DNA of 64,000 nt from the NCBI GenBank assembly GCA_902782125.1, contig CACZMA010000004.1, positions 310,001-374,000 of the forward strand. The letters run 5' to 3'. Made by a program: the position numbers and the translations under genes. The DNA is from Oscillospiraceae bacterium. GTDB lineage: Bacteria > Bacillota > Clostridia > Saccharofermentanales > Saccharofermentanaceae. This document shows, piece after piece, positions 7,783 to 63,242 of this stretch. The notes under the pieces are model-generated. The model had not been told where the DNA came from, ran no database searches, and worked only from the letters and a program-made list of their open reading frames with translations. Positions within the stretch are counted from its first letter, which is position 1; every line of letters starts with the position of its first letter.

Positions 7783-9150
7783 ATGATGGATATCAAGATA
7801 GCAGAAGAATTCATGATCAAACTTATAGCTGAGGCTTCCAAATACGGATTTGAAGAATGTGAAGCAAGCTATTCTGACGACATAACGATGAGCGTGGAGA
7901 TACTCAAAGGAGAGGTCTCCAGCTACGAACAGAGCACATCCCAGGGAGTATCTTTCAGAGGACTCAAGAACGGCCAGATGGGCTACTGCGAGACTTCAAA
8001 GTTCGATGATGAAGCCGTAAGATACATGCTCGAATCAGCCTCCGAGAACTGCGAAGTGCTTAATGACGAAGACAGGGAATTCATCTACTGTGACGAGAAC
8101 AACAAGGATCTGTTCTTCTCACAGACGACCGAAGCATACAATAAGAACACATATAACAGATTCGCCGAATTGGGTCTTGCTCTCGAGAAAGCTATTCTGG
8201 CTCTCGACAGCAGGATTGAAGCCGTAGATTATCTGTCAATTGACTGTTCGAGAGGCCCGGTGCTCATCATCAACTCCAAGGGACTTCATTCATACAGGGA
8301 TTCCGACGGTGTGAGCATCTATGCAGGCTGCCGCGCTACCGATTCTGACGGCAGCATCAAGAGTGGCGGACATTACTGGATCGGCAACGACATCGATAAG
8401 TTTGACATGGATGCTTTCCTTGCAAAGCTCTCGGAGAACATCCTCGGCAAGATGGGGGCCAGATCCTGCGATTCAGGCACATATAAGGCTGTATTTACCA
8501 ACGAGGCATTCATGCAGTTCATGTCTGCTTTCCTGTCCAACACTTTTGCTACCGTAATGCAGAAGGGTTTATCGCTCCTTGCCGGACGAGAGGGCGAGAA
8601 GATAGCATCCGAATGTCTGACACTTAAGGACGTCCCCATGTACGAAGACGCCCTTACCAAGGTGCCGTTTGATGACGAGGGCGTGCTTACGACCGAGAAG
8701 GCCATCATAGATAAAGGCGTTTTCGCGACGGCCCTGTACAATCTTAAGAGTGCCAACAAAGCAGGAACGGCATCTACCGGCAACGGTTTCAAGTCCGGCA
8801 GCACTATCGGCGTGTCGCCCACAAATCTGCTGGTCGTTCCCGGTGAGAAGACTTTCGACGAGCTTTGTGCGGAAGCAGGGGAGGGCATCATCATCACGGA
8901 TCTGTCCGGCCTTCATGCAGGCGTTAATGCCATAAGCGGCGACTTCTCTCTTCTTTGCGAGGGATACCTAATCGAAAACGGCAAGAAGGGAAGACCGGTG
9001 GAACAGATCACTGCAGCAGGTAACTTTTATGAAATAATAAAGAATATTACTGCTGTCGGAAGTGATATAATTAATATTCCGGCCGGTATGGGCGAATTCT
9101 TTACGCCTTCGGTGCTGGTAAGCGAAGTTAATATTTCAGGTGAAGCCTGA
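7783..9150 (+). CDS. pmbA: PmbA/TldE family subunit
   Basis: Non-catalytic partner of TldD in a heterodimeric protease: same fold, no HExxxH. The frame is open from 7747, but AAGGAGG at 7771-7777 sits in front of tandem ATGs at 7783 and 7786, so translation starts at one of these (455 or 454 residues). The C-terminal half has the family region with SGLHAGVNAISGDFSLLCEGYLIENG. It lies ten bases after tldD, as usual for obligate partners. Confidence 0.92.
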   Translation: MMDIKIAEEFMIKLIAEASKYGFEECEASYSDDITMSVEILKGEVSSYEQSTSQGVSFRGLKNGQMGYCETSKFDDEAVRYMLESASENCEVLNDEDREFIYCDENNKDLFFSQTTEAYNKNTYNRFAELGLALEKAILALDSRIEAVDYLSIDCSRGPVLIINSKGLHSYRDSDGVSIYAGCRATDSDGSIKSGGHYWIGNDIDKFDMDAFLAKLSENILGKMGARSCDSGTYKAVFTNEAFMQFMSAFLSNTFATVMQKGLSLLAGREGEKIASECLTLKDVPMYEDALTKVPFDDEGVLTTEKAIIDKGVFATALYNLKSANKAGTASTGNGFKSGSTIGVSPTNLLVVPGEKTFDELCAEAGEGIIITDLSGLHAGVNAISGDFSLLCEGYLIENGKKGRPVEQITAAGNFYEIIKNITAVGSDIINIPAGMGEFFTPSVLVSEVNISGEA

Positions 9151-9173
9151 TCTTATTATAAAGGAGATACAAG

Positions 9174-10454
9174 ATGAGCAATTCAGTAGACACGATCTGC
9201 CTTCACGGCGGCTACAAGCCCGGTAACGGCGAACCCAGACAGGTTCCTATCTATCAGAGTACAACATGGAAGTATTCCACATCCGAAGATATGGGCAAGT
9301 TGTTCGATCTCGAGGCTTCAGGATACTTCTATACAAGACTTCAGAATCCTACAAATGATTATGTAGCTGCCAAGCTCTGCGAGATGGAAGGCGGTTTTGC
9401 TGGAATGCTCACATGCTCCGGTCAGGCAGCAAACTTCTTCGCAGTATTCAATATCTGCGAGGCAGGCGATCATTTCATTGCATCCACAAATATCTACGGC
9501 GGTACATACAATCTCTTCGGAGTAACCTTCAAGAAGATGGGTATCGAGTGCACTTTCGTTGATCAGACTCTGCCTCTCGAAGAGCTCCAGAAGTATGTAA
9601 GACCCAATACAAAGTGCATCTTCGGTGAGACAATAACCAATCCTACCGTTGATATCCTTGATATCGAGAAGTTCGCTGCTCTGGCTCACAACAACGGCAT
9701 CCCGCTCATCATGGACAACACCTTCGCAACTCCCGTACATTGCCGTCCGTTCGAATTCGGCTGCGATATCGTAACTCATTCGACTACTAAGTATATCGAC
9801 GGTCACGGCTCTTCAGTAGGCGGCGCCATCATCGACAGCGGTAACTTCGACTGGATGGCTCATGCTGATAAGTTCCCCGGACTCTGCACACCGGACGAGT
9901 CTTATCACGGCATTACTTATGCTGAGAAGTTCGGTAAGGGCGCATACATCACCAAGGCTACCGCTCAGCTCATGAGAGACTTCGGTTCGATCCAGTCGCC
10001 TCAGAATGCTTATTACATTCAGATCGGTCTTGAATCACTCGCAGTAAGGATCGACAAAGCAACAGCAAATGCTCAGAAGGTTGCCGAATTCCTGGCTTCT
10101 GATGACAGGATCGCATGGGTCAAGTATCCCGGACTTAAGACAGACGGCAGCTATGAGCTCGCTCAGAAGTATTGTCCGAGGGGAACATGCGGCGTAATGT
10201 GCTTCGGCGTTAAGGGCGGAAGAGAAGCATCCATCAAGTTCATGGATTCACTCCAGTTCGCTACTATCGCAACTCATGTTGCAGACTCCAAGACAATGCT
10301 CCTGCATCCCGCATCACACACTCACAGACAGCTCTCTGATGAGCAGCTCGCTGAAGCCGGGATCCCTGCAGATCTTATCCGTTTCAGTGTTGGTCTTGAA
10401 GATCCTGACGATATCATCAACGATATCAAGCAGGCACTTGACAAGATCTCATGA
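9174..10454 (+). CDS. metY: O-acetylhomoserine sulfhydrylase-type PLP enzyme
   Basis: Cys/Met-metabolism PLP enzyme, best fit O-acetylhomoserine aminocarboxypropyltransferase (homocysteine from O-acetylhomoserine and sulfide). The length (426) and the opening DTICLHGG followed by PIYQSTTW are MetY-like; cystathionine gamma-synthases are usually about 380 residues. The PLP lysine is K206 in STTKYIDGHGSS, and IMDNTFATP precedes it. AAGGAG lies just before the ATG. It is 23 bases after pmbA and followed by a strong terminator. A related gamma-lyase activity cannot be excluded. Confidence 0.87.
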   Translation: MSNSVDTICLHGGYKPGNGEPRQVPIYQSTTWKYSTSEDMGKLFDLEASGYFYTRLQNPTNDYVAAKLCEMEGGFAGMLTCSGQAANFFAVFNICEAGDHFIASTNIYGGTYNLFGVTFKKMGIECTFVDQTLPLEELQKYVRPNTKCIFGETITNPTVDILDIEKFAALAHNNGIPLIMDNTFATPVHCRPFEFGCDIVTHSTTKYIDGHGSSVGGAIIDSGNFDWMAHADKFPGLCTPDESYHGITYAEKFGKGAYITKATAQLMRDFGSIQSPQNAYYIQIGLESLAVRIDKATANAQKVAEFLASDDRIAWVKYPGLKTDGSYELAQKYCPRGTCGVMCFGVKGGREASIKFMDSLQFATIATHVADSKTMLLHPASHTHRQLSDEQLAEAGIPADLIRFSVGLEDPDDIINDIKQALDKIS

Positions 10455-10483
10455 TGGAACACAATATATACTGATATCACTTG

Positions 10484-10519
10484 CTGAAGGCCCAATATAT
10501 GGGCCTTCAGTTAAGTTTT
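10484..10519 (+). terminator. Intrinsic terminator after metY
   Basis: A perfect 10-bp GC-rich stem (CTGAAGGCCC 10484-10493 with 10501-10510, 7-base loop) is followed by TTAAGTTTT. It sits 30 bases after the metY stop. Confidence 0.88.
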
Positions 10520-10552
10520 ACGGATAGTGGAGAGGCTAATTCGGTAAAACTT

Positions 10553-11059
10553 ATGGAAAATGAGAGTTTTGAGACCAGATTCGAAGTCGACGAAGTGTAT
10601 GCCAAGCTGTTTGCCAAAGAGGCTGCTCCGTTTGTATTCACATATACGGCACTGATGCTGACGCAGGTATTCTCGGCATTATTGTTTGCGCTTACTCTGT
10701 ATTTCTATGCAACAAATGCCGGTCCTACGATGTTCAAACTGTCGCCGATATTCGGAGTACTGGTCATAGAGTCACTTACTTTATATCTATACAGCAAAGT
10801 CGTTAAGAATATTCAGAACAGATTCATGATGCTGATCGACGGAAAAGATAAAGTATATTATTCGATCGAGATCAAAGACGGGATCATTAAGATCACAAAT
10901 TCAAGATCAGATAATTCAGTTGAGTATCCGGTTAAGTCTGTAAAGAAATATCACGAGACTGAGAATTTTATAATCCTTGAATCCGGAAAGAGCAAACTGT
11001 TCGGATTCTATAAGGAACTCGATCCTGAGCATAAGGTCAGATCTCTGATAATGCACTAA
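10553..11059 (+). CDS. Small membrane protein with YcxB-like C-terminal domain
   Basis: Function unknown. The frame is open from a TTG at 10481, but that codon lies in the metY terminator, so ATG 10553 (168 residues) is preferred; its ribosome binding site is poor (GGAGAGG about 17 bases upstream). Two hydrophobic segments are visible, roughly residues 25-52 (VFTYTALMLTQVFSALLFAL) and 64-80. They are followed by a soluble basic C-terminal part of about 80 residues that resembles YcxB-type domains (PVKSVKKYHETENFIIL). It stands alone between a terminator and a convergent operon. Confidence 0.7.
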   Translation: MENESFETRFEVDEVYAKLFAKEAAPFVFTYTALMLTQVFSALLFALTLYFYATNAGPTMFKLSPIFGVLVIESLTLYLYSKVVKNIQNRFMMLIDGKDKVYYSIEIKDGIIKITNSRSDNSVEYPVKSVKKYHETENFIILESGKSKLFGFYKELDPEHKVRSLIMH

Positions 11060-11222
11060 TAATCATTCAATTATCATACGAATCATTAACCATTGGTTTT
11101 ATACCCCTTCTCAATTCACCAAAATCATAATTATACCGAATTATGATATAAGAATAATACGATAACAGTAAGATTCATCGATACTCTTCTTCTGGAAATA
11201 ACGATTAGATCCGGACCTGTCA
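11060..11222. other. AT-rich convergent intergenic region with a weak hairpin
   Basis: Separates the small membrane gene (+) from the VanZ-like gene (-). A perfect but AT-rich 9-bp inverted repeat at 11124-11132 and 11139-11147 has only TTTT behind it on the minus strand. It could be a weak terminator for the minus-strand operon. Nothing else is recognisable. Confidence 0.4.
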
Positions 11223-11771
11223 TCAGACCTGATATCTGACTTCTTTCTTACCCCTCGCTTTGAGCGAGATCGAGAAAACGATCCTGATGATAAGCAACAC
11301 GATGATAATTCCGATGCAATCAACACCGACATCAACGATCGAACCGTCGCGTCCTGCGACAAACATCTGATGATATTCATCAAAGAGCGCATTAATGATC
11401 GTGAACCAGATTGTCAGTATGATATTCATCTCATTATCGGACTGGAGGATCTTCATCGGACTCTCTGCGTATGAAGTCTTATATGAGATCTTATTTGTAT
11501 TATCAAAAGCCATGAAGGTGAGGAAGGCGAGACAGCCGAATTCCATCATATGCCCTATCACTCTTAATGTGGAATTATCTACCACCTGCTGCCCTGCCAT
11601 ACCGTTTATCAATTCTACGAAAACGTATGTAAAGTTTGCAGAATCATTGGCATTGTCAGATGAGAGCATAAATATAAGCATGACAGTAGCCAGTGTCAGC
11701 GACCAATAGATGATCGAGAATATGAGATGTATAACAGATACTTCTTTTTTATTCTCTGTAACTGCAGCCAT
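11223..11771 (-). CDS. VanZ-like membrane protein
   Basis: Integral membrane protein of the VanZ family, members of which affect teicoplanin tolerance or cell-surface properties; biochemical role unclear. The diagnostic segment DEYHQMFVAGRDGSIVDVG is followed by a last hydrophobic helix. An N-terminal helix (IIYWSLTLATVMLIFML) and two more in the middle give about four in total. 182 residues. Its ATG overlaps the smpB stop by one base (TGATG), with GGAGA upstream, so it is the last gene of the long minus-strand unit. Confidence 0.82.
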   Translation of the reverse strand: MAAVTENKKEVSVIHLIFSIIYWSLTLATVMLIFMLSSDNANDSANFTYVFVELINGMAGQQVVDNSTLRVIGHMMEFGCLAFLTFMAFDNTNKISYKTSYAESPMKILQSDNEMNIILTIWFTIINALFDEYHQMFVAGRDGSIVDVGVDCIGIIIVLLIIRIVFSISLKARGKKEVRYQV

Positions 11772-12244
11772 CAGACGTCTCTCCTGCTGATCTTCATTGC
11801 TCTGTCGATATCGCGCTTTGCCTGTTTCTCGGCAATCGTGTCACGCTTATCGTAATCCTTCTTACCTCTGGCAAGTCCTATCTCAAATTTTACCTTACCA
11901 TCCTTAAAATAACACTTAGTTGGAACAAGTGTAAGTCCGTCGAGCTTTGTTTTGGAGAAAAGTCTGGTAATCTCGTTCCTGTGCATGAGCAGCTTCCTGT
12001 TACGCATTGGGTCGAGATTATAGCGGTTACCCTGTTCATAAGGGCTGATGTGCACTCCAATAAGCCACATCTCGCTGTTCTTGACCTGGCAATATGAGTC
12101 CTTGAGATTCACCTTACCGGCACGAAGGCTCTTCACTTCAGTTCCGGACAGCACGATACCGCACTCATACTTCTCCTCTATGAAGTAGTCATGGAATGCT
12201 TTCCTGTTCTCTGCAATTATCTTGATTCCGCGCTGTACGGGCAT
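11771..12244 (-). CDS. smpB: SsrA-binding protein SmpB
   Basis: Binds tmRNA and delivers it to stalled ribosomes (trans-translation). The 157-residue length, the N-terminal [21 protein letters not shown], the central [18 protein letters not shown] and the basic C-terminal tail ([12 protein letters not shown]) are all typical. AAGGAG lies before ATG 12244. It is ten bases downstream of tsaD. The tmRNA gene ssrA, often close by, is not visible here. Confidence 0.97.
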
Positions 12245-53155: not shown

Positions 53156-55384
53156 TCAGAAGGATCTTCTTCTGCCCTTCTTCTCGTCGCCGGAATCATC
53201 GGACTCGCGTCTCTCGCGACCCTGGAATCCGCCTCTTCTCTCACGGTTAGGACGGTTCTCGCGTCTTCTGGGTTCTTCCTCTACATAGCCTTCAGGCTTA
53301 GGGAGGCAGTCACGGATGGAGAGGTTGAGTCTGCCCTGAGAATCGATCTCGATGAGCTTAACATGAACCTTATCACCTTCGTGGAGAACATCCTCGACCT
53401 TCTCGACTCTGTTCCAAGCCATCTTGGAGATGTGAACGAGACCTTCCTTGCCGGGCAGGAATTCGACGAATGCACCAAAGTCCATAAGGCGTGTTACCGT
53501 TCCGTCGTACTCTGTTCCGACTTCAGGATCTGCAACGATACCGTTGATGATCATCTTAGCCTTCTCAGCCTTCTCGAGGTCAGGTGTGGAAATGAAGATC
53601 GTTCCATCATCGTTGATGTTGATGTCAGCGCCTGTGTCAGCGATGATCTTGTTGATTACCTTTCCGCCTGAACCGATTACCTCACGGATCTTGTCCGTAG
53701 GAACCTTCATCGTGATGATACGGGGTGCATAAGCAGAAAGCTCAGCACGAGGCTCGGAGATGCAAGGAAGGATAACATCATTGATGATCTGCAGTCTTCC
53801 CTTGCGTGTCATCTCGAATGCCTGGCGGATGATCTCGAGTGTGAGACCTTCAACCTTGATGTCGACCTGGATGGATGTGATACCTTCTGTTGTACCTGCA
53901 ACCTTGAAGTCCATGTCACCGAAGAAGTCCTCGATACCCTGGATATCCATAAATACCAGGAAGTTATCGTCGTTATCGGGATCTGTGATAAGTCCGGAAG
54001 AGATACCTGCTACAGGTCTCTTGATCGGAACGCCTGCTGCCATGAGAGACAGTGTGGAAGCGCATACTGAACCCTGTGATGTGGAACCGTTGGACATTGT
54101 GATCTCGGATACTGTACGGATAGCATAAGGGAACTCTTCCTCTGAAGGAAGTACAGGAATGAGTGATCTCTCAGCAAGAGCACCGTGACCGATCTCTCTT
54201 CTTCCCGGGCTTCTGGAGGGCTTAGCCTCGCCTGTGGAGTAGCCGGGCATGTTGTAGTGATGGATATATCTCTTGTATTCCTGCTCATCGAGTCCTTCGA
54301 GCTTCTGTGCTTCAGCGAGAGGAGCGAGTGTGCAGATGTTCATTACCTGAGTCTGACCTCTCTGGAACCATGCACTGCCGTGAACTCTCGGGATCTGATC
54401 GATACCGCATGACAGAGGACGGATCTCATCGAGTGCACGTCCGTCAACACGTCTGTGCTCACGGAACAGATAATCTCTTACAACCTTCTTCTCGAGTTTG
54501 TAGATGGAATCTGCAGCCCACTTGGAAAGACCTTCTTCCTTCTCCTCGAGCATTGCAGCTACTTCTTCCTGAAGCTTTGCAACGTTGGCATCTCTTACTT
54601 CCTTGTCAACAGCAAGTACAGCTTCTCTCATCTTGTCCCAGCCATATTCCTTAACGGCATCGAAAACCTCTTCCGGAACATCAGCTGACTCGTATGTGAA
54701 CTTCTCCTTGCCTACTTCGGCAACGATTCCGTTGATGAACTCAACGATCTTCTTGATCTCCTCATGACCTTCAGCGATAGCATTAAGCATAACGTCATCA
54801 GGTACTTCGTTAGCGCCTGCCTCGACCATGCAGATCTTGGTAAGCGTACCTGCGAGGGTAACATACATCTGGGATTCCTGACGCTGCTCGAGCGTAGGGT
54901 TGATGATGGTCTTGCCGTCAATGAGGCCTAATACAACACCGCCGATAGGTCCCTTCCACGGGATATCGGAGATAGCGATCGAGATGGAAGTACCGAGCAT
55001 CGCTGCGATCTCAGGTGAACAGTCGGGATCAACAGACATAACAAGATTGTTGACGCTGACATCATTACGGAGATCCTTAGGGAACAGAGGACGGATAGGA
55101 CGGTCGATAACACGTGATGTAAGGATCGCCTTCTCGCCGGGTCTTCCCTCTCTCTTAAGGAATCCGCCCGGGATCTTGCCTACTGCATACATCTTTTCCT
55201 CATAGTCAACGGACAGCGGGAAGAAGTCGATTCCTTCACGGGGCTGTGTTGAAGCAGTAGCTGTGGACAACACGGTGGTATCACCGTACTTAACGAGCGC
55301 AGAGCCGTTGGCGAACTGCGCGAAATGACCGACTTCAACCGTAAACGGTCTGCCGGCGATCTCTGTCTTGAAAATCTTTTCCAT
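53156..55384 (-). CDS. pnp: Polyribonucleotide nucleotidyltransferase (PNPase)
   Basis: 3'-5' phosphorolytic exoribonuclease of the RNA degradosome. 742 residues: two RNase PH domains (SALVKYGDTTVLSTA; then RGQTQVMNICTLAP and SEITMSNGSTSQGS), a KH domain with GSGGKVINKI, an S1 domain (GTVTRLMDFGAFVEFLPGKEGL), and a very basic Arg-rich tail of about 40 residues. Two ATGs (55390 and 55384) are possible; AAAGGAG is seven bases before the second. A long folded leader precedes it. Confidence 0.97.
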   Translation of the reverse strand: MEKIFKTEIAGRPFTVEVGHFAQFANGSALVKYGDTTVLSTATASTQPREGIDFFPLSVDYEEKMYAVGKIPGGFLKREGRPGEKAILTSRVIDRPIRPLFPKDLRNDVSVNNLVMSVDPDCSPEIAAMLGTSISIAISDIPWKGPIGGVVLGLIDGKTIINPTLEQRQESQMYVTLAGTLTKICMVEAGANEVPDDVMLNAIAEGHEEIKKIVEFINGIVAEVGKEKFTYESADVPEEVFDAVKEYGWDKMREAVLAVDKEVRDANVAKLQEEVAAMLEEKEEGLSKWAADSIYKLEKKVVRDYLFREHRRVDGRALDEIRPLSCGIDQIPRVHGSAWFQRGQTQVMNICTLAPLAEAQKLEGLDEQEYKRYIHHYNMPGYSTGEAKPSRSPGRREIGHGALAERSLIPVLPSEEEFPYAIRTVSEITMSNGSTSQGSVCASTLSLMAAGVPIKRPVAGISSGLITDPDNDDNFLVFMDIQGIEDFFGDMDFKVAGTTEGITSIQVDIKVEGLTLEIIRQAFEMTRKGRLQIINDVILPCISEPRAELSAYAPRIITMKVPTDKIREVIGSGGKVINKIIADTGADININDDGTIFISTPDLEKAEKAKMIINGIVADPEVGTEYDGTVTRLMDFGAFVEFLPGKEGLVHISKMAWNRVEKVEDVLHEGDKVHVKLIEIDSQGRLNLSIRDCLPKPEGYVEEEPRRRENRPNRERRGGFQGRERRESDDSGDEKKGRRRSF

Positions 55385-55420
55385 AGACATTCTCCTTTGT
55401 GAAATAAAGTATTCGTAAAA

Positions 55421-55486
55421 GGAGGTAGTCCGCAGGTTCACGGTCCGACGCCGGTGTTCGGGCAGTCAGCCTACACACTACGCTCC
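55421..55486 (-). ncRNA. Structured leader RNA of pnp
   Basis: Between the promoter and the pnp start, about 110 bases. A closing stem is formed by GGAGCGTAGT and ACTACCTCC (plus-strand coordinates 55477-55486 and 55421-55429), one bulge. Inside are shorter complementary runs (GTGT/ACAC, CCGG/CCGG-like). pnp leaders in other bacteria are sites of autoregulation; the fold here is my own hand inspection, with no match to a named riboswitch. Confidence 0.45.
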
Positions 55487-55539: not shown

Positions 55540-56940
55540 TCAGGACTCATCCAGCTTCTTCTCAAGTAATCTGAACGCTTCACCGACGCACTCTTCGTAT
55601 GTGGGATGGGCACGCATTACCGAAGCGCAGTCTTCAATGGTCGTAATGCCCTGAGAGATTGCAAGTGTCAGCTCTCCGATCATATCGGTGGCGTTGGCAC
55701 ACATAAGCTGTGCACCGACAAGCTTACGCTCTGTACGGTCGGCAACGAGTTTGACGAAGCCTCTCTCTTCTCCGGTTATTACAGACTTGGCATTGGCAGA
55801 TGTAAGCGCTCTGACACTGACAACATCAATGCCGGCAGCTTCTGCTTCGCTCTCTGTCATACCGACACAGGCGATCTCAGGACTTGTATAGACACATGCC
55901 GGGATGAGATCCGGCCAGATGATGGAGTTATCATCCAGTATGCTCATCACGGCATTTTCTCCTTCTGCAGAAGCCTTATGTGCGAGCTGCGGACCTGCTG
56001 TAATATCACCTATCGCATATATGTGCTCCACTGAAGTCCTTCCGAGACCTTCAGTATCTATCCTGCCGTCAGTAACCTTGATGCCGATACTCTCTGCAAC
56101 ATCCGTCACGGCTCTCCTGCCGACTGCGATCATCACGGCTTCGGCCGTAACGGTAGCGGTTTTTCCGTCTGACTCATAAGCGACTACGGCAGAGCCGTCT
56201 TCGCCTTCTGAAATCGAAGTGACCCTGGAGCCGGTATGGATGTCCGCACCACGCTTCTTAAGGATCATCTGGGCATTACGGGATATCTCCTTGTCAAAGC
56301 CGCTCAGCATTCTGGGAAGGCCTTCAATGACAGTAACCTTGCGGCCAAGGTCAGTAAAGAACGAAGCAAATTCTGTACCGATGACACCGCCGCCGATTAT
56401 GACGAGACTTGAAGGAAGCCTGTCAGCTTTGAGCAGCCTGTCTGAATCAGTAACCACATCCAGATCTATACCCGGGATATCCGGAATTACAGTCTCGCTT
56501 CCGGTGGCAAGGATAAGATCCTTTGCCTGACATTCCATAATGCCGTCAGATGTCTCGATGCTTACTCTTATAAGATCTTCTGTTGATACTATTGAAGCTT
56601 TACCGATGACAACTTCCGCCCCGCTTGCCTTGAGCGAAGTCTTAAGCCCTTCGACAAGGCTGCTTACAGTCTTGTCGCGGTAAGATGCAAGCACAGACTC
56701 ATCGATCTCAGGTGTACAGTTAACACCAATAGAAGAACCGGCAGCAGCCTGTCTGTAAAGACAGGAAGCATGGAGTAAAGCCTTGGTCGGGATGCAACCG
56801 CGGTTAAGGCAGGTGCCGCCTATCGCGTCCTTCTCGATTATAAGTGTACGAAGCCCTGCTGATGCAGCCTTGATGGCAGCGGCAGAACCGCCGGGACCAG
56901 CTCCGATCACGATGAGATCATAGATGTCATTTGCTGCCAT
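55540..56940 (-). CDS. lpdA: Dihydrolipoyl dehydrogenase
   Basis: FAD enzyme that reoxidises dihydrolipoyl groups with NAD+. 466 residues. FAD motif VIGAGPGGSAAAIKAA, redox-active disulfide GGTCLNRGCIPTKA, NAD motif VIIGGGVIGTEFAS, and the C-terminal His-Glu region (AHPTYEE). The first 14 bases overlap lplA, with GGAGTG before the ATG. It is the last gene of the seven-gene unit from nadE. No E1/E2 or GcvP/T gene is in the window, so its lipoyl partner here is GcvH. Confidence 0.95.
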   Translation of the reverse strand: MAANDIYDLIVIGAGPGGSAAAIKAASAGLRTLIIEKDAIGGTCLNRGCIPTKALLHASCLYRQAAAGSSIGVNCTPEIDESVLASYRDKTVSSLVEGLKTSLKASGAEVVIGKASIVSTEDLIRVSIETSDGIMECQAKDLILATGSETVIPDIPGIDLDVVTDSDRLLKADRLPSSLVIIGGGVIGTEFASFFTDLGRKVTVIEGLPRMLSGFDKEISRNAQMILKKRGADIHTGSRVTSISEGEDGSAVVAYESDGKTATVTAEAVMIAVGRRAVTDVAESIGIKVTDGRIDTEGLGRTSVEHIYAIGDITAGPQLAHKASAEGENAVMSILDDNSIIWPDLIPACVYTSPEIACVGMTESEAEAAGIDVVSVRALTSANAKSVITGEERGFVKLVADRTERKLVGAQLMCANATDMIGELTLAISQGITTIEDCASVMRAHPTYEECVGEAFRLLEKKLDES

Positions 56941-57646
56941 ATATCCACTCCGTACTGATTAGGCGCTGTCTTGCACTCTCGATATCAAAAGCATTAAGGC
57001 TTGAGATATCTGAAGGTTCAGCCGTGCCGTATTTATCTTCAAACGCTTTTATAATAGCAGATTTTACGTCAGATACGGTAAGTGCGGGATCTACTTCACT
57101 AAGGTTGATAACGCGGGACCTCACACTGGCCACGCCGTGAGATGCAAGTTTGGCCTTATCCGGTGTTAACACTCTTTCCATGACAGTAAGGTCAGTGTTG
57201 ATGAGTATTGTGCCGTGGTGGAATGCTTTCGAGCCGCTCTTGAAGTATGCGTTGCCTGAGAATTTGGCGCTGTTCCTTCCGCACATGATCTCAATGTCAT
57301 TGCGTCCTGTGGTCTGAACGTCAAGTCCGAGATAACGCATGGCACTGACTATTATGTCAGTCTCGTTATCAGAACCTGCGAAAGTAAAATTCAGATTGCC
57401 CCTGTCGTGATATACCGCGCCGCCACCCGATAACCTGCGGCTGAGCCTGATACCGTGAGCCTCCGCATAAGAAGTATCGACTTCAGATAATATGTCCTGA
57501 TTCCTGCCGACAACGACCGTGCAGTCATTCTGCCACAGATACAAGCCCTTCCTGCCGGTGCAGACTGATGCCAGGACCTCCTCAACGGCAAGGTTGTAAT
57601 AGGGATCAAAGCCTTTACCGTGAAGGATCAGCGGAGAAGCGTTCAT
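56927..57646 (-). CDS. lplA: Lipoate-protein ligase, catalytic domain only
   Basis: Attaches lipoate to a carrier lysine. 239 residues instead of about 330: RRLSGGGAVYHDRGNLNF, GRNDIEI, the Lys in AKFSGNAYF and the HHGT motif are present, but the protein stops at STEWIYGSK, exactly where the C-terminal accessory domain (needed for lipoate activation in E. coli LplA) would begin. Since lpdA overlaps the end, this is not a broken gene. It may need a separate partner such as LplB, or act as a transferase. Starts one base inside the gcvH stop (TAATG). Confidence 0.88.
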   Translation of the reverse strand: MNASPLILHGKGFDPYYNLAVEEVLASVCTGRKGLYLWQNDCTVVVGRNQDILSEVDTSYAEAHGIRLSRRLSGGGAVYHDRGNLNFTFAGSDNETDIIVSAMRYLGLDVQTTGRNDIEIMCGRNSAKFSGNAYFKSGSKAFHHGTILINTDLTVMERVLTPDKAKLASHGVASVRSRVINLSEVDPALTVSDVKSAIIKAFEDKYGTAEPSDISSLNAFDIESARQRLISTEWIYGSK

Positions 57647-58026
57647 TACGAGAGAGAATCAATGTACGCGTCGTATTCTCCGGCGCTGAGAAGGTTGCAC
57701 TTGTCCGTAACTTTCTCTATCACGGCAAACCATGCTCCATACGGATCTTCGTTGATGAGTTCAGGACTGTCGAGCAGAGCTTCGTTGATCTCCTTAACGA
57801 CGCCTGTAACGGGAGAATATACGTCAGATACGGTCTTGATGCTCTCTACATCAGCAAAAGGCGTTCCTGCCGTAACGGTGTCACCAACCTCTGGCAGATT
57901 CGCGAAAACAAGATTGCCCAGTTCCTTCTGCGCATAGAAGCTTATGCCGACACGGCAGGTACCGTCTTCTTCGAAGATCGCCCACTCGTGTTCTTTTGCA
58001 TACTGTCTGTCGTCTCTCTCTCTCAT
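57646..58026 (-). CDS. gcvH: Glycine cleavage system H protein-like lipoyl carrier
   Basis: 126 residues, a complete H protein: lipoylation Lys64 in ESIKTVSD, and N-terminal KEHEWAIFEEDGTCRVGISFYAQKELG. The genes for GcvT and GcvP are absent here, while the enzymes that load (LplA) and reoxidise (LpdA) it lie directly downstream, overlapping. GAGG is five bases before the ATG. It could be a normal H protein whose P and T partners are elsewhere in the genome, or a carrier dedicated to the dehydratase-like genes upstream. Confidence 0.93.
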   Translation of the reverse strand: MRERDDRQYAKEHEWAIFEEDGTCRVGISFYAQKELGNLVFANLPEVGDTVTAGTPFADVESIKTVSDVYSPVTGVVKEINEALLDSPELINEDPYGAWFAVIEKVTDKCNLLSAGEYDAYIDSLS

Positions 58027-58033
58027 ATAAGCC

Positions 58034-58771
58034 TCACAGTCTTTCAGCGTACAAAGCAGCTCCGATAGCCGAGAGATAGTACGAATCCTCAGGGATCACG
58101 ACTTCGGCAGAGTAGACTTTGGACGCACATTTATCTATGTCTTTGATCAGGGTAAGACCGCCGCTCAGCGCGATAGAATCGTACCTGACCTTACGGAGCA
58201 GCACTTTGGACTGCGCCAGGATCTGCCAGATCACAGCAGTCATTATATCAGAAGGATCCGCTCCTTTTGCTATCAGGCTCACGATCTCCGTCTGCGCGAA
58301 AACGGCACATGTAGAAGATAGGTCTATCTTCGGCTCTTCACCGCCCTTAAGATCAATGTCTTCGAAGTTTAAGCCAAGTTGATTCAGGGAATTGATGGCA
58401 AACATGCCGCATCCGGCAGCGCACTTGTCATTAACGAAGAATTCCTTAAGCCTGGACCCGTCTCTTACGATTATCTTGGTGTCCTGACCGCCGATATCGA
58501 GTATCACATCATTTGCAGGAGCCATATAGGCAGCGCCTTCAGCAAGTGCTGTTAGTTCGCTTATCTCGCTGACGGCAACGATATTGTTCCTGCCGTACCC
58601 GCAGGACACTATCTTAGCACCGGGATGATCAGTCTGAAGCTGCTTAAGCTTGTCTGCGAAGAACTCCTTCTGTCTGACCGGAGTCTTAACTGAAAACAGC
58701 TTAAGATCATCGCCGTCCTTGATGCAGTATTTGGTATATGTGGATCCTATGTCGATGCCGATGGAAGTCAT
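58034..58771 (-). CDS. 2-Hydroxyacyl-CoA dehydratase activator-type ATPase
   Basis: 245 residues, ASKHA-fold BadF/HgdC family. IGIDIGSTYTKYC, SCGYGRNNI, DIGGQDTKII and the cluster cysteines C117 (NDKCAAG) and C155 (STCAVFA), which carry the [4Fe-4S] between subunits. C121 in CAAGCG is an extra cysteine. HgdC-type activators use ATP to inject a low-potential electron into their partner. Three bases after the HgdA-like gene, no separate ribosome binding site. Confidence 0.93.
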   Translation of the reverse strand: MTSIGIDIGSTYTKYCIKDGDDLKLFSVKTPVRQKEFFADKLKQLQTDHPGAKIVSCGYGRNNIVAVSEISELTALAEGAAYMAPANDVILDIGGQDTKIIVRDGSRLKEFFVNDKCAAGCGMFAINSLNQLGLNFEDIDLKGGEEPKIDLSSTCAVFAQTEIVSLIAKGADPSDIMTAVIWQILAQSKVLLRKVRYDSIALSGGLTLIKDIDKCASKVYSAEVVIPEDSYYLSAIGAALYAERL

Positions 58772-58774
58772 AGA

Positions 58775-59917
58775 TCAGTTAAGAGACTCCTTCATTACAG
58801 CTATCAGGCTCTTCGCCCTGTCCAGATCGAGGTATTCGCGGTCGATCATATCTATCTCGAGTTCGGTCTGTACGATACCGACATCCTTGGCGGATACGAA
58901 GTCGCACTTACAGGACTTGTTACGGCAGGATATGGCGCACTTAGCGCCGGATGATTCGATCAGTGCCTGAAGTCTCGCTGTCTTAGTCTCCTGCTTAAGA
59001 TTCAGGAAAGTATAGTTATAAGCATTGAACAGGCTCTCCCAGACATCACTTCCGGAGTAATCAAGATTCCACCAGTTGATGTAGTTGGAACCAACTACGG
59101 CAAAGCCTTCCGTAACTTCGCTCAGATATCTGTCAGGATGATACCAGAGCGGATATCCGATCCAGAACAAAGGCATCAGCGAAGGATCTTTGTCAGGGCT
59201 CTGTGCAAGCTCATCAGCCATGAGATTATAGATGGTCGCCGTATCTTCCTTGCACCTTGCAGTGATAAGGAAGTTAATGTTGTCGAATAACAGCGTAGGC
59301 GGTATATCCTTGTCCTTGAAGCAGGATATTACCCTCTTCCATGCCTCGACCGAAGCCTTACTGCGCCCGATGGCAGCCTTAAGATCATCCATATCAAGTT
59401 TATTGCCGGAGAGTTCTTCCATCCTTGAGATGAACTCCTGATGCTGCTCCTTTACATAAGAAGCAGCGATCTCAGGCGAAGTAAACTCACCGGGATAATC
59501 GAGAATGATCAAGGGAACATTGTATTTTTTTGCAAGAGTATTCCACCAGCCGGGAAGCGTATTGCACTGGTTATTTGTGGCAATGAGTACATCCGGCTTC
59601 GGCGGCAGTCCTCTGGGACCGCTCTCTGTGGCAAGGCAGCCTTCAAAGCAGCATGAATAAGAGCAGCAATTGAGCGACAGCCCCTGACGGTCGGATTCCT
59701 CGAGCAAAGCCTGCTCCTTACCGCTTGCGGCTATTACCGCTGCATAGCTCTCAGGATAGATATATTCGATGCCAAGGCAGTCAAGTATCTCGACAGGAGT
59801 AAAAGATGTGACCCATGCGACCTTGCATTCAGGCGCTCTGCCCTTGGCGTATTTAGAGAAGTCCTTATAGTAGCTTCTCATGGAACTTGCAACATACTTG
59901 AGGTAGGAATCAGCCAT
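58775..59917 (-). CDS. 2-Hydroxyacyl-CoA dehydratase subunit-like protein, cysteine-rich
   Basis: 380 residues, HgdA/BcrC-type. WVTSFTPVEIL and YPESYAAVIAA are family regions. Usual cluster ligands: C85 (CSY), C118 (NNQC) and C336 (NKSC). There are many extra cysteines near them: C84, C89, C90, C94, then C327, C331 and C338. The frame is open to 59989, but GGAGG six bases before ATG 59917 decides. Eight-base overlap with the HgdB-like gene. A CoA-transferase gene, usual in fermentative dehydratase operons, is absent, so the substrate is unknown. Confidence 0.88.
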   Translation of the reverse strand: MADSYLKYVASSMRSYYKDFSKYAKGRAPECKVAWVTSFTPVEILDCLGIEYIYPESYAAVIAASGKEQALLEESDRQGLSLNCCSYSCCFEGCLATESGPRGLPPKPDVLIATNNQCNTLPGWWNTLAKKYNVPLIILDYPGEFTSPEIAASYVKEQHQEFISRMEELSGNKLDMDDLKAAIGRSKASVEAWKRVISCFKDKDIPPTLLFDNINFLITARCKEDTATIYNLMADELAQSPDKDPSLMPLFWIGYPLWYHPDRYLSEVTEGFAVVGSNYINWWNLDYSGSDVWESLFNAYNYTFLNLKQETKTARLQALIESSGAKCAISCRNKSCKCDFVSAKDVGIVQTELEIDMIDREYLDLDRAKSLIAVMKESLN

Positions 59918-60863
59918 GACAAGCCTCCAGCATGGATGCAAAAGCTCCGAGTTCAGCCTCGTGCAGGTTTTGATCAAGTGAACCGTCAAGTTCTAACTTA
60001 AGCGAAGGGATACCTGCATCATCCAAGGCCTTCTTAAGGACTGAATAGTAATAGTCGTAAGGCTCGCAGAATCTCTGAGTAACTACGAGCACTCCCCTGC
60101 ATCCCTTTTTGCCGATCTCTTCCATCGTCTCCTTTATCCTGTCAGAATACGAATTCTGAGTCGGCGAAGTCCTGCTCGAGAGCACCTGGAGCGCGACCAG
60201 TTGATAGATATCATCAACTACGGGGAAAGCCCTCTTGGCGATCCTGTTTGATTCAGGCAGGTCGTCTCCTATTATGCGGAGTCCGTTCTTCTCTGCAGAA
60301 TCAACGATGCCGGCATTTGTCATGTAAGATCCGAGCAAGAATACAGGTATTCCCGCCGACTGACCGGAAGCTTCGATCTTCTGCTCAGCCAAAGGCTTGG
60401 TAAAGTTCTCATGGATCGCATTAAGATAAGATGAATAGGAAAGTCCGTCAGCAAGACTCTCATAAAGCGAATTGATCGAAGCATTGCGTGCCTCGACCAT
60501 CCGGAACCTGTCGTAGATCTCATCTTCAGAGATGCTGATTCCGTAATGAGCCTCAACGGCAGTCTTGTAATCACGGATCACATATGCATAATAGCTGATG
60601 GCATCTTCACTTCTTACGACCGGGACTGCAAGCGAATATACGAACTTGCCGGACTCGCCGATATAGGAAGATATCGACCTCGAACTGTCGCAGGTCTTCG
60701 GGAATACTGCGCCGTCGATCGTATCATCAGACAACACCTGAGATATATAGTCAGATGCATAAGTACAGTAATGCGAGAAACCGGCATCACCCTTGAAGCC
60801 GTTAAACCTTACCGTATCGCAGATTGCTTCCGGCACAAAACCGGACATCGAGAGTATCTTCAT
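59910..60863 (-). CDS. 2-Hydroxyacyl-CoA dehydratase subunit-like protein, smaller subunit
   Basis: 317 residues, HgdB-type. Expected cluster cysteines: C33 (HYCTYASDY), C58 (FPKTCDSSR) and C266 (RFCEPYDYYY). Shorter than HgdB of fermentative enzymes (about 370-380). It overlaps nadE by one base (TGATG) and the cysteine-rich subunit by eight bases. With the activator, it forms a complete HgdABC-like set. A dehydration, an aromatic reduction and a double-cubane-type reduction are all possible by family. Confidence 0.88.
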   Translation of the reverse strand: MKILSMSGFVPEAICDTVRFNGFKGDAGFSHYCTYASDYISQVLSDDTIDGAVFPKTCDSSRSISSYIGESGKFVYSLAVPVVRSEDAISYYAYVIRDYKTAVEAHYGISISEDEIYDRFRMVEARNASINSLYESLADGLSYSSYLNAIHENFTKPLAEQKIEASGQSAGIPVFLLGSYMTNAGIVDSAEKNGLRIIGDDLPESNRIAKRAFPVVDDIYQLVALQVLSSRTSPTQNSYSDRIKETMEEIGKKGCRGVLVVTQRFCEPYDYYYSVLKKALDDAGIPSLKLELDGSLDQNLHEAELGAFASMLEACHG

Positions 60864-62791
60864 CAGCCCTTAACGCTCTCCAGGTCTTCCATCCAAAGTG
60901 TGTACTTCGCATCAGAAGGCATTCTCCAGTCGCCTCTCGGAGACAGCGAGACAGTACCGACCTTGGGACCGTCAGGCACGCAGGATCTCTTGAACTGCTG
61001 CGTGAAGAACCTTCTTATGAATGTCTCTTCCCACTTATAGATGGTATCCGCATCGTATGCGCCGTCGAAAGCGGCCAAGGCCATGCGGTAGATTTTCGAG
61101 GGGGTGAAGCCGTACCTGATCATGTAGTACAGGAAGAAGTCGTGCAGCTCGTAAGGGCCGACCGTCTCCTCAGTCTTCTGCGAGATCTTGCCGTCCTCAG
61201 TCGGAGGAAGGAGCTCGGGAGATACGGGCGTTGCAACGATATCCGCCAGTGCTTTGGACAAAGTCGGATTAACGTCTGCCGTGCGTGTTGATTCATAAGA
61301 AACGAGATATCTTACGAGAGTCTTGGGGATTGAGCAGTTTACACCGTACATGGACATATGGTCGCCGTTGTATGTAGCCCAGCCGAGAGCAAGCTCAGAC
61401 AGATCACCTGTACCGATGACAAGTCCGCCCTCCTGGTTCGCAATATCCATGAGGATCTGGGTGCGTTCTCTCGCCTGAGAGTTCTCATAAGTGATATCCC
61501 TTACTTCCGGATCATGTGAGATGTCCTTGAAGTGCTGAGTGACGGCATCAGAGATGGATATCTCTCTTAAGGTGCATCCGTATTCTTCCGCGATGTTGAT
61601 CGAGTTATTCTTGGTCCGATCTGTCGTACCGAAGCCGGGCATCGTGATCCCGATGATATTCTTACGGTCAAGGCCGAGCTTATCGAATGCATGGATGGTA
61701 ACAATGAGTGCCAATGTCGAATCGAGTCCGCCGGACAGTCCTATAACGGCTTTGGTGGAACCGATGGCCTTAAGCCTTGTATAGAGGCCTGCAGCCTGCA
61801 TGTTCAGTATATCCTCGCATCTCTGTTCGAGATCGTCCTTGGAAGACGGAACGAACGGAGTCCTGCTGATCTTCCTGTTAAGACTGATATCGGGAAACTC
61901 GGCATCGAACTCAACGATGTCAACGCCGTTATAACCGTCCAGATCGCCATAGAAAGTATTGCTCCTTCTCCTGTCAGCATCGATCCTGTCGATATCGATA
62001 TCGGCATAAAGGACGGCCTCGTCTTCGTTGTCATTTGCAAATCTCTTGCTCTCAGCGATGATCTTGCCGTTCTCTGCGATAAGATTATGTCCGCCAAACA
62101 CGAGGTCCTGCGTGGACTCGCCCAGGCCTGAATCGGCATAGACATATGCAGCCATGAGCTTGGCACTCTGCATCTTAACGAGATCTCTTCTGAACTTCGC
62201 CTTACCGATGATCTCGTCAGAACAGCTGAGATTGAATATGACCTGTGCACCGCTCTGAACGTATTCAACAGAGGGGCTTGAAGCTACCCAGAGATCCTCG
62301 CAGATCTCGACCGCGAAAGAGAATTCACCACAGTTGAATACAGCCCTGCCAAAGCAGATCTCGTCATTAGTCATGATGACGCCTTCATCGACATAAGGCG
62401 TAAAGTGTCTTAATTCGTAGAACTCGGAATGATTGGGAATATTCTGCTTGGGAACAAGGCCAAGGATATCGCCCTGATGCAGGACAGCTGCAACATTATA
62501 CAGCTTGTCTCCAAGCTGATACGGGAGACCGACGATTATTATCGTATTAAGGTCTGCTGTCTCCTCTGCCAGTTCAAAGAGGCCTTCTATAGCCTTATCG
62601 AGCAGTGCAGCCTGTAGGAACAGGTCACCGCAGGTATATCCGGTAAGACCAAGCTCAGGGAAAACAATAGCGGCACAATCATTCTCCGCTGCCTTCTTCG
62701 CACAAAGAACAGTCTGGGCGACATTGTATTCAACATCTCCGACCTTTACGGCGGGACTTGCTGCCGCTACTCTGATAAAACCGTCAAGCAT
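60863..62791 (-). CDS. nadE: Glutamine-dependent NAD+ synthetase
   Basis: Makes NAD+ from deamido-NAD+, ATP and glutamine. 642 residues: N-terminal nitrilase-like glutaminase with Glu (FPELGLTG), Lys (VPKQNIPN) and Cys (VEICEDLW); C-terminal synthetase with the P-loop VIGLSGGLDST. GGAGG lies before the ATG. It is the first gene of the seven-gene unit that continues with the dehydratase-like genes and ends with lpdA. Confidence 0.96.
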   Translation of the reverse strand: MLDGFIRVAAASPAVKVGDVEYNVAQTVLCAKKAAENDCAAIVFPELGLTGYTCGDLFLQAALLDKAIEGLFELAEETADLNTIIIVGLPYQLGDKLYNVAAVLHQGDILGLVPKQNIPNHSEFYELRHFTPYVDEGVIMTNDEICFGRAVFNCGEFSFAVEICEDLWVASSPSVEYVQSGAQVIFNLSCSDEIIGKAKFRRDLVKMQSAKLMAAYVYADSGLGESTQDLVFGGHNLIAENGKIIAESKRFANDNEDEAVLYADIDIDRIDADRRRSNTFYGDLDGYNGVDIVEFDAEFPDISLNRKISRTPFVPSSKDDLEQRCEDILNMQAAGLYTRLKAIGSTKAVIGLSGGLDSTLALIVTIHAFDKLGLDRKNIIGITMPGFGTTDRTKNNSINIAEEYGCTLREISISDAVTQHFKDISHDPEVRDITYENSQARERTQILMDIANQEGGLVIGTGDLSELALGWATYNGDHMSMYGVNCSIPKTLVRYLVSYESTRTADVNPTLSKALADIVATPVSPELLPPTEDGKISQKTEETVGPYELHDFFLYYMIRYGFTPSKIYRMALAAFDGAYDADTIYKWEETFIRRFFTQQFKRSCVPDGPKVGTVSLSPRGDWRMPSDAKYTLWMEDLESVKG

Positions 62792-62902: not shown

Positions 62903-63169
62903 TTACTTTCTGATGCCGAGCTTAGCAATAAGAGTTCTGTAACGCTCGATATCAATAGCTGCAAGATAGTCAAGGATGTTCCTTCTCTTACCAACCATCA
63001 TGAGAAGACCTCTTCTGCTGTGGTGGTCACCCTTGTGAGTCTTGAGGTGCTCTGTGAGATGGTTAATTCTGTAAGTCAGAAGTGCAACCTGTACCTCAGG
63101 AGAACCTGTATCGCCCTCAGAGAGTGCATATTCCTTGATAATAGCCTGCTTGTCGAAAGATGCTGACAT
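62903..63169 (-). CDS. rpsO: 30S ribosomal protein S15
   Basis: 88 residues; binds the 16S central domain. [27 protein letters not shown] with HHSRRGLL and [10 protein letters not shown] are the rRNA-contact regions. The frame is open to 63232, but GGAGG eight bases before ATG 63169 gives the start. Own promoter, folded leader and terminator. Unlike in many bacteria, pnp is not directly behind it. Confidence 0.98.
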
Positions 63170-63201
63170 TGATCTTTCCTCCTTATGAATTAATACGCCA
63201 A

Positions 63202-63242
63202 AATCGAAGGTAAGGGTCGGAGTCTTCCGCAAAACTGCGATT
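63202..63242 (-). ncRNA. Possible S15 autoregulatory leader
   Basis: The rpsO leader (about 80 bases) contains AATCG/CGATT at 63202-63206 and 63238-63242, which can close a region with two small hairpins (CGCA/TGCG and GGA/TCC), giving a three-way-junction-like fold. S15 autoregulation through the rpsO leader is known in several bacteria with varied RNA folds. Hand inspection only; the closing stem and one hairpin share bases, so alternative folds exist. Confidence 0.35.

Follow-up and report, generated by a model that had tools for sequence, protein, structure and literature searches.

A stretch of 64,000 nucleotides from an Oscillospiraceae bacterium (contig CACZMA010000004.1, positions 310,001 to 374,000, hereafter the window) carries on its minus strand six genes, hgdB-, hgdA- and hgdC-like genes followed by gcvH, lplA and lpdA, that constitute a well-supported conserved module. 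The module appears to be previously undescribed and may represent a new use for lipoic acid. Its conservation in relatives, the active-site residues and folds of its products, the pattern in which its lipoyl genes are lost, and its co-occurrence with FkbH-domain proteins lead us to favor, as the reading most likely to be correct as a whole, a lipoyl-coupled radical dehydratase that would act on an FkbH-derived acyl group destined for surface glycans.

Conservation of the six genes

In 84,980 species genomes scanned, 53 loci were found at 57–91% HgdA identity, mostly in metagenome-assembled genomes (MAGs) of gut and rumen Clostridia, and also in Eubacterium plexicaudatum, a few isolates, and Gastranaerophilales. 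Among the neighbors of hgdA in these loci were hgdB (51 loci), hgdC (52), gcvH (45), lpdA (41), and lplA (39), numbers that are affected by the early ends of several locus contigs. The genes were found in at least four orders—hgdBAC-gcvH-lplA-lpdA as in the window, gcvH-lpdA-lplA-hgdBAC, hgdBAC-gcvH-lpdA-lplA, and gcvH-lpdA-hgdBAC-lplA—with gaps mostly of 0–100 bp. Genes that are reordered yet stay linked point to functional coupling. An order unique to this genome, or a linkage broken in its relatives, could have exposed the arrangement as chance packing; neither was found, and the hgd-like trio plus gcvH, lplA, and lpdA stand as the functional unit that a preliminary description of this DNA had proposed.

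The module is rare: in an even sample of 291 genomes across the class, 2 had it. Within the genus, an HgdA-like protein was present in 6 of 35 genomes and gcvH in exactly those six, while the next HgdA match in a sample of relatives had 31% identity. No relative was found in viral contigs.

The dehydratase-like and lipoyl proteins

HgdA (380 aa; 58775..59917; PF06050, E=4.5e-39), the active-site subunit, starts at the ATG at 59917, as do its relatives; HgdB (317 aa; 59910..60863; PF06050, E=2.2e-30) is a second HGD-D family subunit with a HadC/BzdN-like fold. By sequence, the closest solved structure was HadB/HadC, HgdA matching HadB (3o3m_A) with a profile E=7e-42 and HgdB matching HadC (3o3m_B) with a phmmer E=1e-14. 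HadB was also closest to HgdA by fold (Foldseek TM-score 0.85 to 3o3m_A), and HgdB matched BzdN and HadC at TM-scores of 0.81–0.84. The AlphaFold2 models used (predicted local distance difference test scores 87.8 for HgdA and 90.8 for HgdB) back the fold only; no cluster is visible in such a model. HgdC (245 aa; 58034..58771) is an ATPase activator of the PF01869 (BcrAD_BadFG) type and scored 164.8 bits, above cut-off, with TIGR00241 (acyl-CoA dehydratase activase).

The predicted [4Fe-4S] ligands are C85, C118, and C336 in HgdA, where E56 is the predicted acid/base residue, and the invariant C33, C58, and C266 in HgdB, whose family alignment has these three invariant cysteines plus C15 at 90%. 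In HgdC, the invariant C117 and C155 are predicted to hold the bridging cluster. The three predicted ligands of HgdA, the three of HgdB, and the two cysteines of HgdC are kept in at least 96% of alignment rows. HgdA has seven conserved cysteines (C84, C85, C90, C118, C222, C336, and C338); C84, C90, C222, and C338 are clade-specific and invariant, and go beyond the three predicted ligands, some lying beside them. With two PF06050 subunits, a BadF-type activator, and three cluster cysteines per catalytic subunit, the proteins belong to the HGD-D / BCR-HAD superfamily. No NCBIfam model reached its cut-off with HgdA or HgdB, and the scores with the curated HadB and HadC models were 142.5 (cut-off 750) and 53.4 (cut-off 700) bits. 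HgdAB is thus best viewed, from sequence and model, as a putative radical enzyme of the type of the 2-hydroxyacyl-CoA dehydratases (HADs). A double-cubane enzyme resembling the double-cubane cluster proteins (DCCPs) is disfavored because HgdB has too few cysteines, but the four extra cysteines of HgdA might conceivably ligate a second sub-cluster.

The lipoyl proteins likewise have the expected functional residues. GcvH (126 aa; 57646..58026; GCV_H; TIGR00527, 132 bits, above cut-off) has its lipoyl-lysine, K64, in the sequence ESIKT, and the motif E[ST]xK was found in 39 of 39 copies. LplA (239 aa; 56927..57646; PF21948 (LplA-B_cat), E=1.3e-51), a lipoyl ligase or transferase, consists of the catalytic domain alone, without the Lip_prot_lig_C domain that a longer homologue in locus L028 has. 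LpdA (466 aa; 55540..56940; TIGR01350, 436.5 bits, above cut-off) is a dihydrolipoyl dehydrogenase with its redox pair C44/C49 and H445/E450 intact, and the motifs are conserved in relatives. The module therefore has what a lipoate-dependent system comprises: a lipoyl-domain protein with its lysine motif, a ligase, and a dihydrolipoyl dehydrogenase (E3).

The genome from which the window comes (2.14 Mb, 97.8% complete) contains no other H protein and no other PF21948 protein that we could find. GcvP was already noted to be missing near the module, and a whole-genome search with PF02347 gave no match to this P-protein (gcvT was not searched for); nor was a 2-oxoacid dehydrogenase E2 found. Since gcvH and lplA are single-copy and both P-protein and E2 are missing from these searches, no other client was found for the lipoyl genes of the window. 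A role in glycine cleavage was rejected on the same grounds: the genome has no glycine decarboxylase P-protein, and only 5 of 47 module genomes gave a full-strength match.

Nine loci have hgdBAC without a local lplA, and another lipoyl system was present in eight of these nine genomes, versus 0 of 12 tested genomes with a local lplA (p=4e-5, kinship ignored). The other system is glycine cleavage in L025, L048, L056, L057, and L059 (only a P-protein of it being found in L057) and an E2 complex in L027, L044, and L053. L025, L056, and L059, which also lack a local gcvH, have a gcvT-gcvH-gcvP operon elsewhere in the genome. The HgdA tree indicates several local losses of lipoyl genes, with four independent pairs, all or nearly all concordant. 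The Gastranaerophilales copies (L056, L057, and L059) have no local lipoyl genes and nest in a Clostridia clade of this tree, which suggests that the hgdBAC trio alone was transferred horizontally into a host already holding lipoyl-GcvH. The simplest reading of local lipoyl genes being lost where another lipoyl system exists is that HgdBAC needs lipoyl-GcvH, from whatever source, and we consider it likely that the six genes encode one enzyme system with this need.

FkbH, acyl carrier protein, and the candidate reaction

An FkbH-domain protein is encoded within reach in 26 of the 53 loci, and a small acyl carrier protein (ACP) in 24. The FkbH domains scored above cut-off, the DxDNTxW sequence (the haloacid dehalogenase-type DxD motif) was present in 26 of 26, and the serine of the ACP DSL motif in 19 of 20. 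In 12 loci the genes form an operon, fkbH-acp-gcvH-lpdA-lplA-hgdB-hgdA-hgdC, with gaps of 3–40 bp in most; L054 has lplA at the end and L045 has no lpdA. Other loci read fkbH-acp-MBOAT-SGNH-hgdBAC-gcvH-lplA-lpdA. Genes for a membrane O-acyltransferase (MBOAT, DltB-like) are present in 16 loci, one kind of SGNH-like gene in 8, and a second kind in 5. Judged from their sequences, the surrounding genes appear to include NeuB/NeuC-like, GalE-like, DegT-like, and glycosyltransferase-like ones. At the genome level, FkbH was above cut-off in 42 of 47 module genomes (89%), versus 35 of 291 genomes of the class (12%). Same-genus genomes without the module offer the fairer comparison, and there FkbH was present in 13 of 29; across the whole set the difference is still significant (p=4e-5, kinship ignored). 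The seven-gene picture in the preliminary description (the six genes plus nadE) lacked both the FkbH and ACP partner and the polysaccharide context, these genes lying here on another contig as an FkbH-ACP-MBOAT-ThrH-type phosphatase cluster (contig 14, L106:8073-12293) near the gene for a bisphosphoglycerate-independent phosphoglycerate mutase.

By radical chemistry, HADs strip the 2-hydroxyl from 2-hydroxyacyl thioesters (PMC11971306 and literature cited there), and FkbH is held to make glyceryl-S-ACP (PMC7489565). Joining HAD chemistry and the FkbH product to the shared operon gives the core of our proposal, namely that the FkbH product is the substrate; action of HgdAB on an FkbH-derived acyl group seems reasonably probable from the gene contexts. 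From this we infer a substrate, product, direction of electron flow, and glycan target, as follows. LplA would attach the lipoyl group to GcvH, and LpdA would exchange electrons between this group and NAD(H), while HgdC, as an ATP-driven [4Fe-4S] activator, would put low-potential electrons into HgdAB. The substrate would most likely be not a CoA ester but an FkbH-made 2-hydroxyacyl thioester on the small ACP, D-glyceryl-S-ACP formed from 1,3-bisphosphoglycerate, from which HgdAB would take off the 2-hydroxyl via a ketyl radical. Most simply, two reducing equivalents would then come from the dihydrolipoyl arm of GcvH, which NADH and LpdA would recharge, and the result would be a 3-hydroxypropionyl-type acyl thioester; alternatively, the lipoyl arm could serve as an acyl carrier. 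The MBOAT and SGNH-like neighbors suggest a final step in which these partners would move the acyl group to a surface glycan. The gene for glyceroyl transfer in Tannerella is unknown (PMC6120980) and is of no use as a precedent. A dithiol-reduced radical deoxygenation would have a logic comparable to that of ribonucleotide reductase.

That GcvH and LpdA are either a redox partner of the dehydratase-like enzyme or a carrier of its substrate was an early suggestion; it is still the leading idea and is strengthened by the loss pattern, whereas the choice between the two roles is more conjectural. We prefer the reductant role because a phosphopantetheine carrier is already encoded, and because the four extra HgdA cysteines could relay the dithiol. 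Even so, NADH-driven reductive dehydroxylation specifically is put forward tentatively. So too is the fully specified system, in which a lipoate-dependent HAD-fold radical enzyme would act on ACP-bound glyceryl, with NADH, LpdA, and lipoyl-H protein as the reductant, in the acyl decoration of gut-bacterial surface glycans; this is possible, and we would not put it more strongly.

Several observations weigh against the proposal. The sequence itself names no substrate, and HADs usually act on CoA esters, recycle their electron, and need no dithiol. FkbH was not found in 5 of the 47 module genomes, all MAGs. Co-occurrence within the genus is weak (p=0.017, essentially one clade), given the 13 module-less genomes that have FkbH, and FkbH must therefore work without the module. 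The FkbH-ACP-MBOAT cluster of the window's own genome is unlinked to the module, as throughout the genus, and genus members without the module (L112-L114) also have such a cluster; where the cluster is kept in this way, the module would add a tailoring step that is optional. As to the lipoyl system, the four independent pairs are too few for significance alone, no lipoyl ligase at all was found in L035, and the L045 operon (7919-11871; fkbH, acp, gcvH, lplA, and hgdBAC) has no lpdA in 21 kb, so that this enzyme must be either supplied by a gene outside the operon or unnecessary there.

The alternative that survives best, although we judge it rather unlikely, makes lipoyl-GcvH the acyl carrier: NADH and LpdA would open the disulfide, and a 2-hydroxyacyl group would be moved from ACP (or loaded by FkbH) to the dihydrolipoyl thiol. 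HgdAB would there carry out a redox-neutral dehydration, as HADs do on CoA, converting glyceryl to a malonic semialdehyde thioester or lactyl to acrylyl. This fits the cysteine pattern of HgdB, which is HAD-type and not double-cubane-type and so is compatible with electron-recycling dehydration, and in glycine cleavage GcvH is established as the bearer of an aminomethyl group; the option was also named in the preliminary description. However, a phosphopantetheine ACP already stands beside FkbH in most linked loci, so that this route would call for another carrier as well as a transacylase, and no transacylase is among the recurrent gene families of the loci.

An improbable alternative is that the module serves fermentation or detoxification as a 2-hydroxyacyl-CoA dehydratase, or reduces small molecules, and that it shares variable polysaccharide islands with FkbH by chance and has GcvH/LpdA as a general thiol donor. 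The module does not adjoin FkbH in the window, in the related L016-L022 and L065, or in L029, L046, L060, and L062, and fold similarity to DCCP-type relatives is lower but clear. Set against these points are the 12 loci in which fkbH and acp share an unbroken operon with the module, the 89% co-occurrence among genomes, and the lack of any CoA-transferase or beta-oxidation gene among the recurrent families. The view that ordinary genes came together by chance here, namely nadE, a stray dehydratase, and a lipoyl cassette for salvage, gains something from nadE, itself a chance neighbor, but is for the six genes already contradicted by a linkage that many families keep in at least four gene orders, by single-copy lipoyl genes, and by the lack of any other lipoyl enzyme found here, and is very improbable.

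nadE (60863..62791, minus strand), a glutamine-dependent NAD synthetase with PF02540 and PF00795 (NF002730, 860 bits), is a co-directional neighbor outside the module. It had been proposed to supply NAD as part of the unit, a role that we reject because it adjoins the module solely in the nearest kin L015 and L067 (L066 and L067 are one genome), every other locus being without it. The layout reported with it was exact to the base: nadE and the six genes follow one another in the same direction on the minus strand, and recomputing the junctions gave four overlaps (1, 8, 1, and 14 bases) and two gaps (3 and 7 bases). The claim of one promoter fared less well; a promoter-like site with a 10/12 match is present just upstream of nadE (62851-62822), but matches in the region are no more frequent than in shuffled sequences, and a single promoter ahead of nadE is plausible but unproven. 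rpsO (62903-63232) and pnp (53156-55441) bracket the unit, and L015 has the same flanks.

Comparison with known systems

Among the open papers found, none brings FkbH together with 2-hydroxyglutaryl-CoA dehydratase, and none links GcvH, BadF, and lipoate; literature on FkbH, ACP, and capsule yielded nothing relevant, and that on GcvH, lipoyl, and dehydratase no dehydratase link among the matches listed. The original impression that no system of this make-up had been described thus agrees with the curated families and open papers found. As listed in 2018, the characterized lipoate-dependent complexes numbered five, to which the sHdr-LbpA sulfur pathway was then added (PMC6067878). If our proposal is true, there is one more lipoate-dependent system, in organisms otherwise often without any; the HAD radical family gains a partner outside CoA metabolism; and the surface polysaccharides of Clostridia from rumen and gut are predicted to bear an undetected acyl group. 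It would also account for gcvH, lplA, and lpdA standing isolated in genomes that have no glycine cleavage; such genes may be wrongly assigned to glycine metabolism in annotations.

Like the 2-hydroxyacyl-CoA dehydratases (HadBC + HadI, FldBC, LcdAB, and HgdAB + HgdC), the module combines two HGD-D subunits, each with three cysteines predicted to bind a cluster, with a BadF-type ATPase activator. HadB/HadC is the closest match by sequence and one of the closest by fold, and the Glu55/Glu65 acid-base residue is kept as E56, the equivalent of HadB Glu55. The module differs in scoring far under the HadB/HadC cut-offs, in its shorter HgdB and extra HgdA cysteines, in the linked lipoyl-GcvH, LplA, and LpdA, and in its FkbH/ACP context, its loci showing neither a CoA-transferase nor a CoA pathway. 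Class I benzoyl-CoA reductases (BzdNOPQ and MbdNOPQ) and DCCP share the fold family and the ATPase activator, but HgdB has three invariant cysteines plus the one at 90%, where BzdN has six as ligands of its [8Fe-9S] cluster (PMC11971306).

The glycine cleavage system likewise has a bona fide GcvH and a dihydrolipoyl dehydrogenase, but the window's genome has no GcvP, and 42 of the 47 module genomes no full-strength match to it. In sHdr-LbpA, too, a GcvH-like carrier and its own ligase are linked to an iron-sulfur enzyme, with a linked dihydrolipoamide dehydrogenase in the archaeal form, and the window's LplA resembles the single-domain ligases of sulfur oxidizers in having no small C-terminal domain (PMC6067878). 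The module departs from that system in having an HGD-D radical enzyme as partner, not a heterodisulfide-reductase-like complex, in having a standard GcvH, and in occurring in strict gut anaerobes. Finally, the glyceryl-ACP pathways that lead to methoxymalonyl-ACP and tetronates resemble the linked operons in having an FkbH-domain protein and a stand-alone ACP; the module's recurrent families differ in including no FkbG/I/K-type oxidation genes and in having MBOAT and SGNH-like genes in place of a polyketide synthase.

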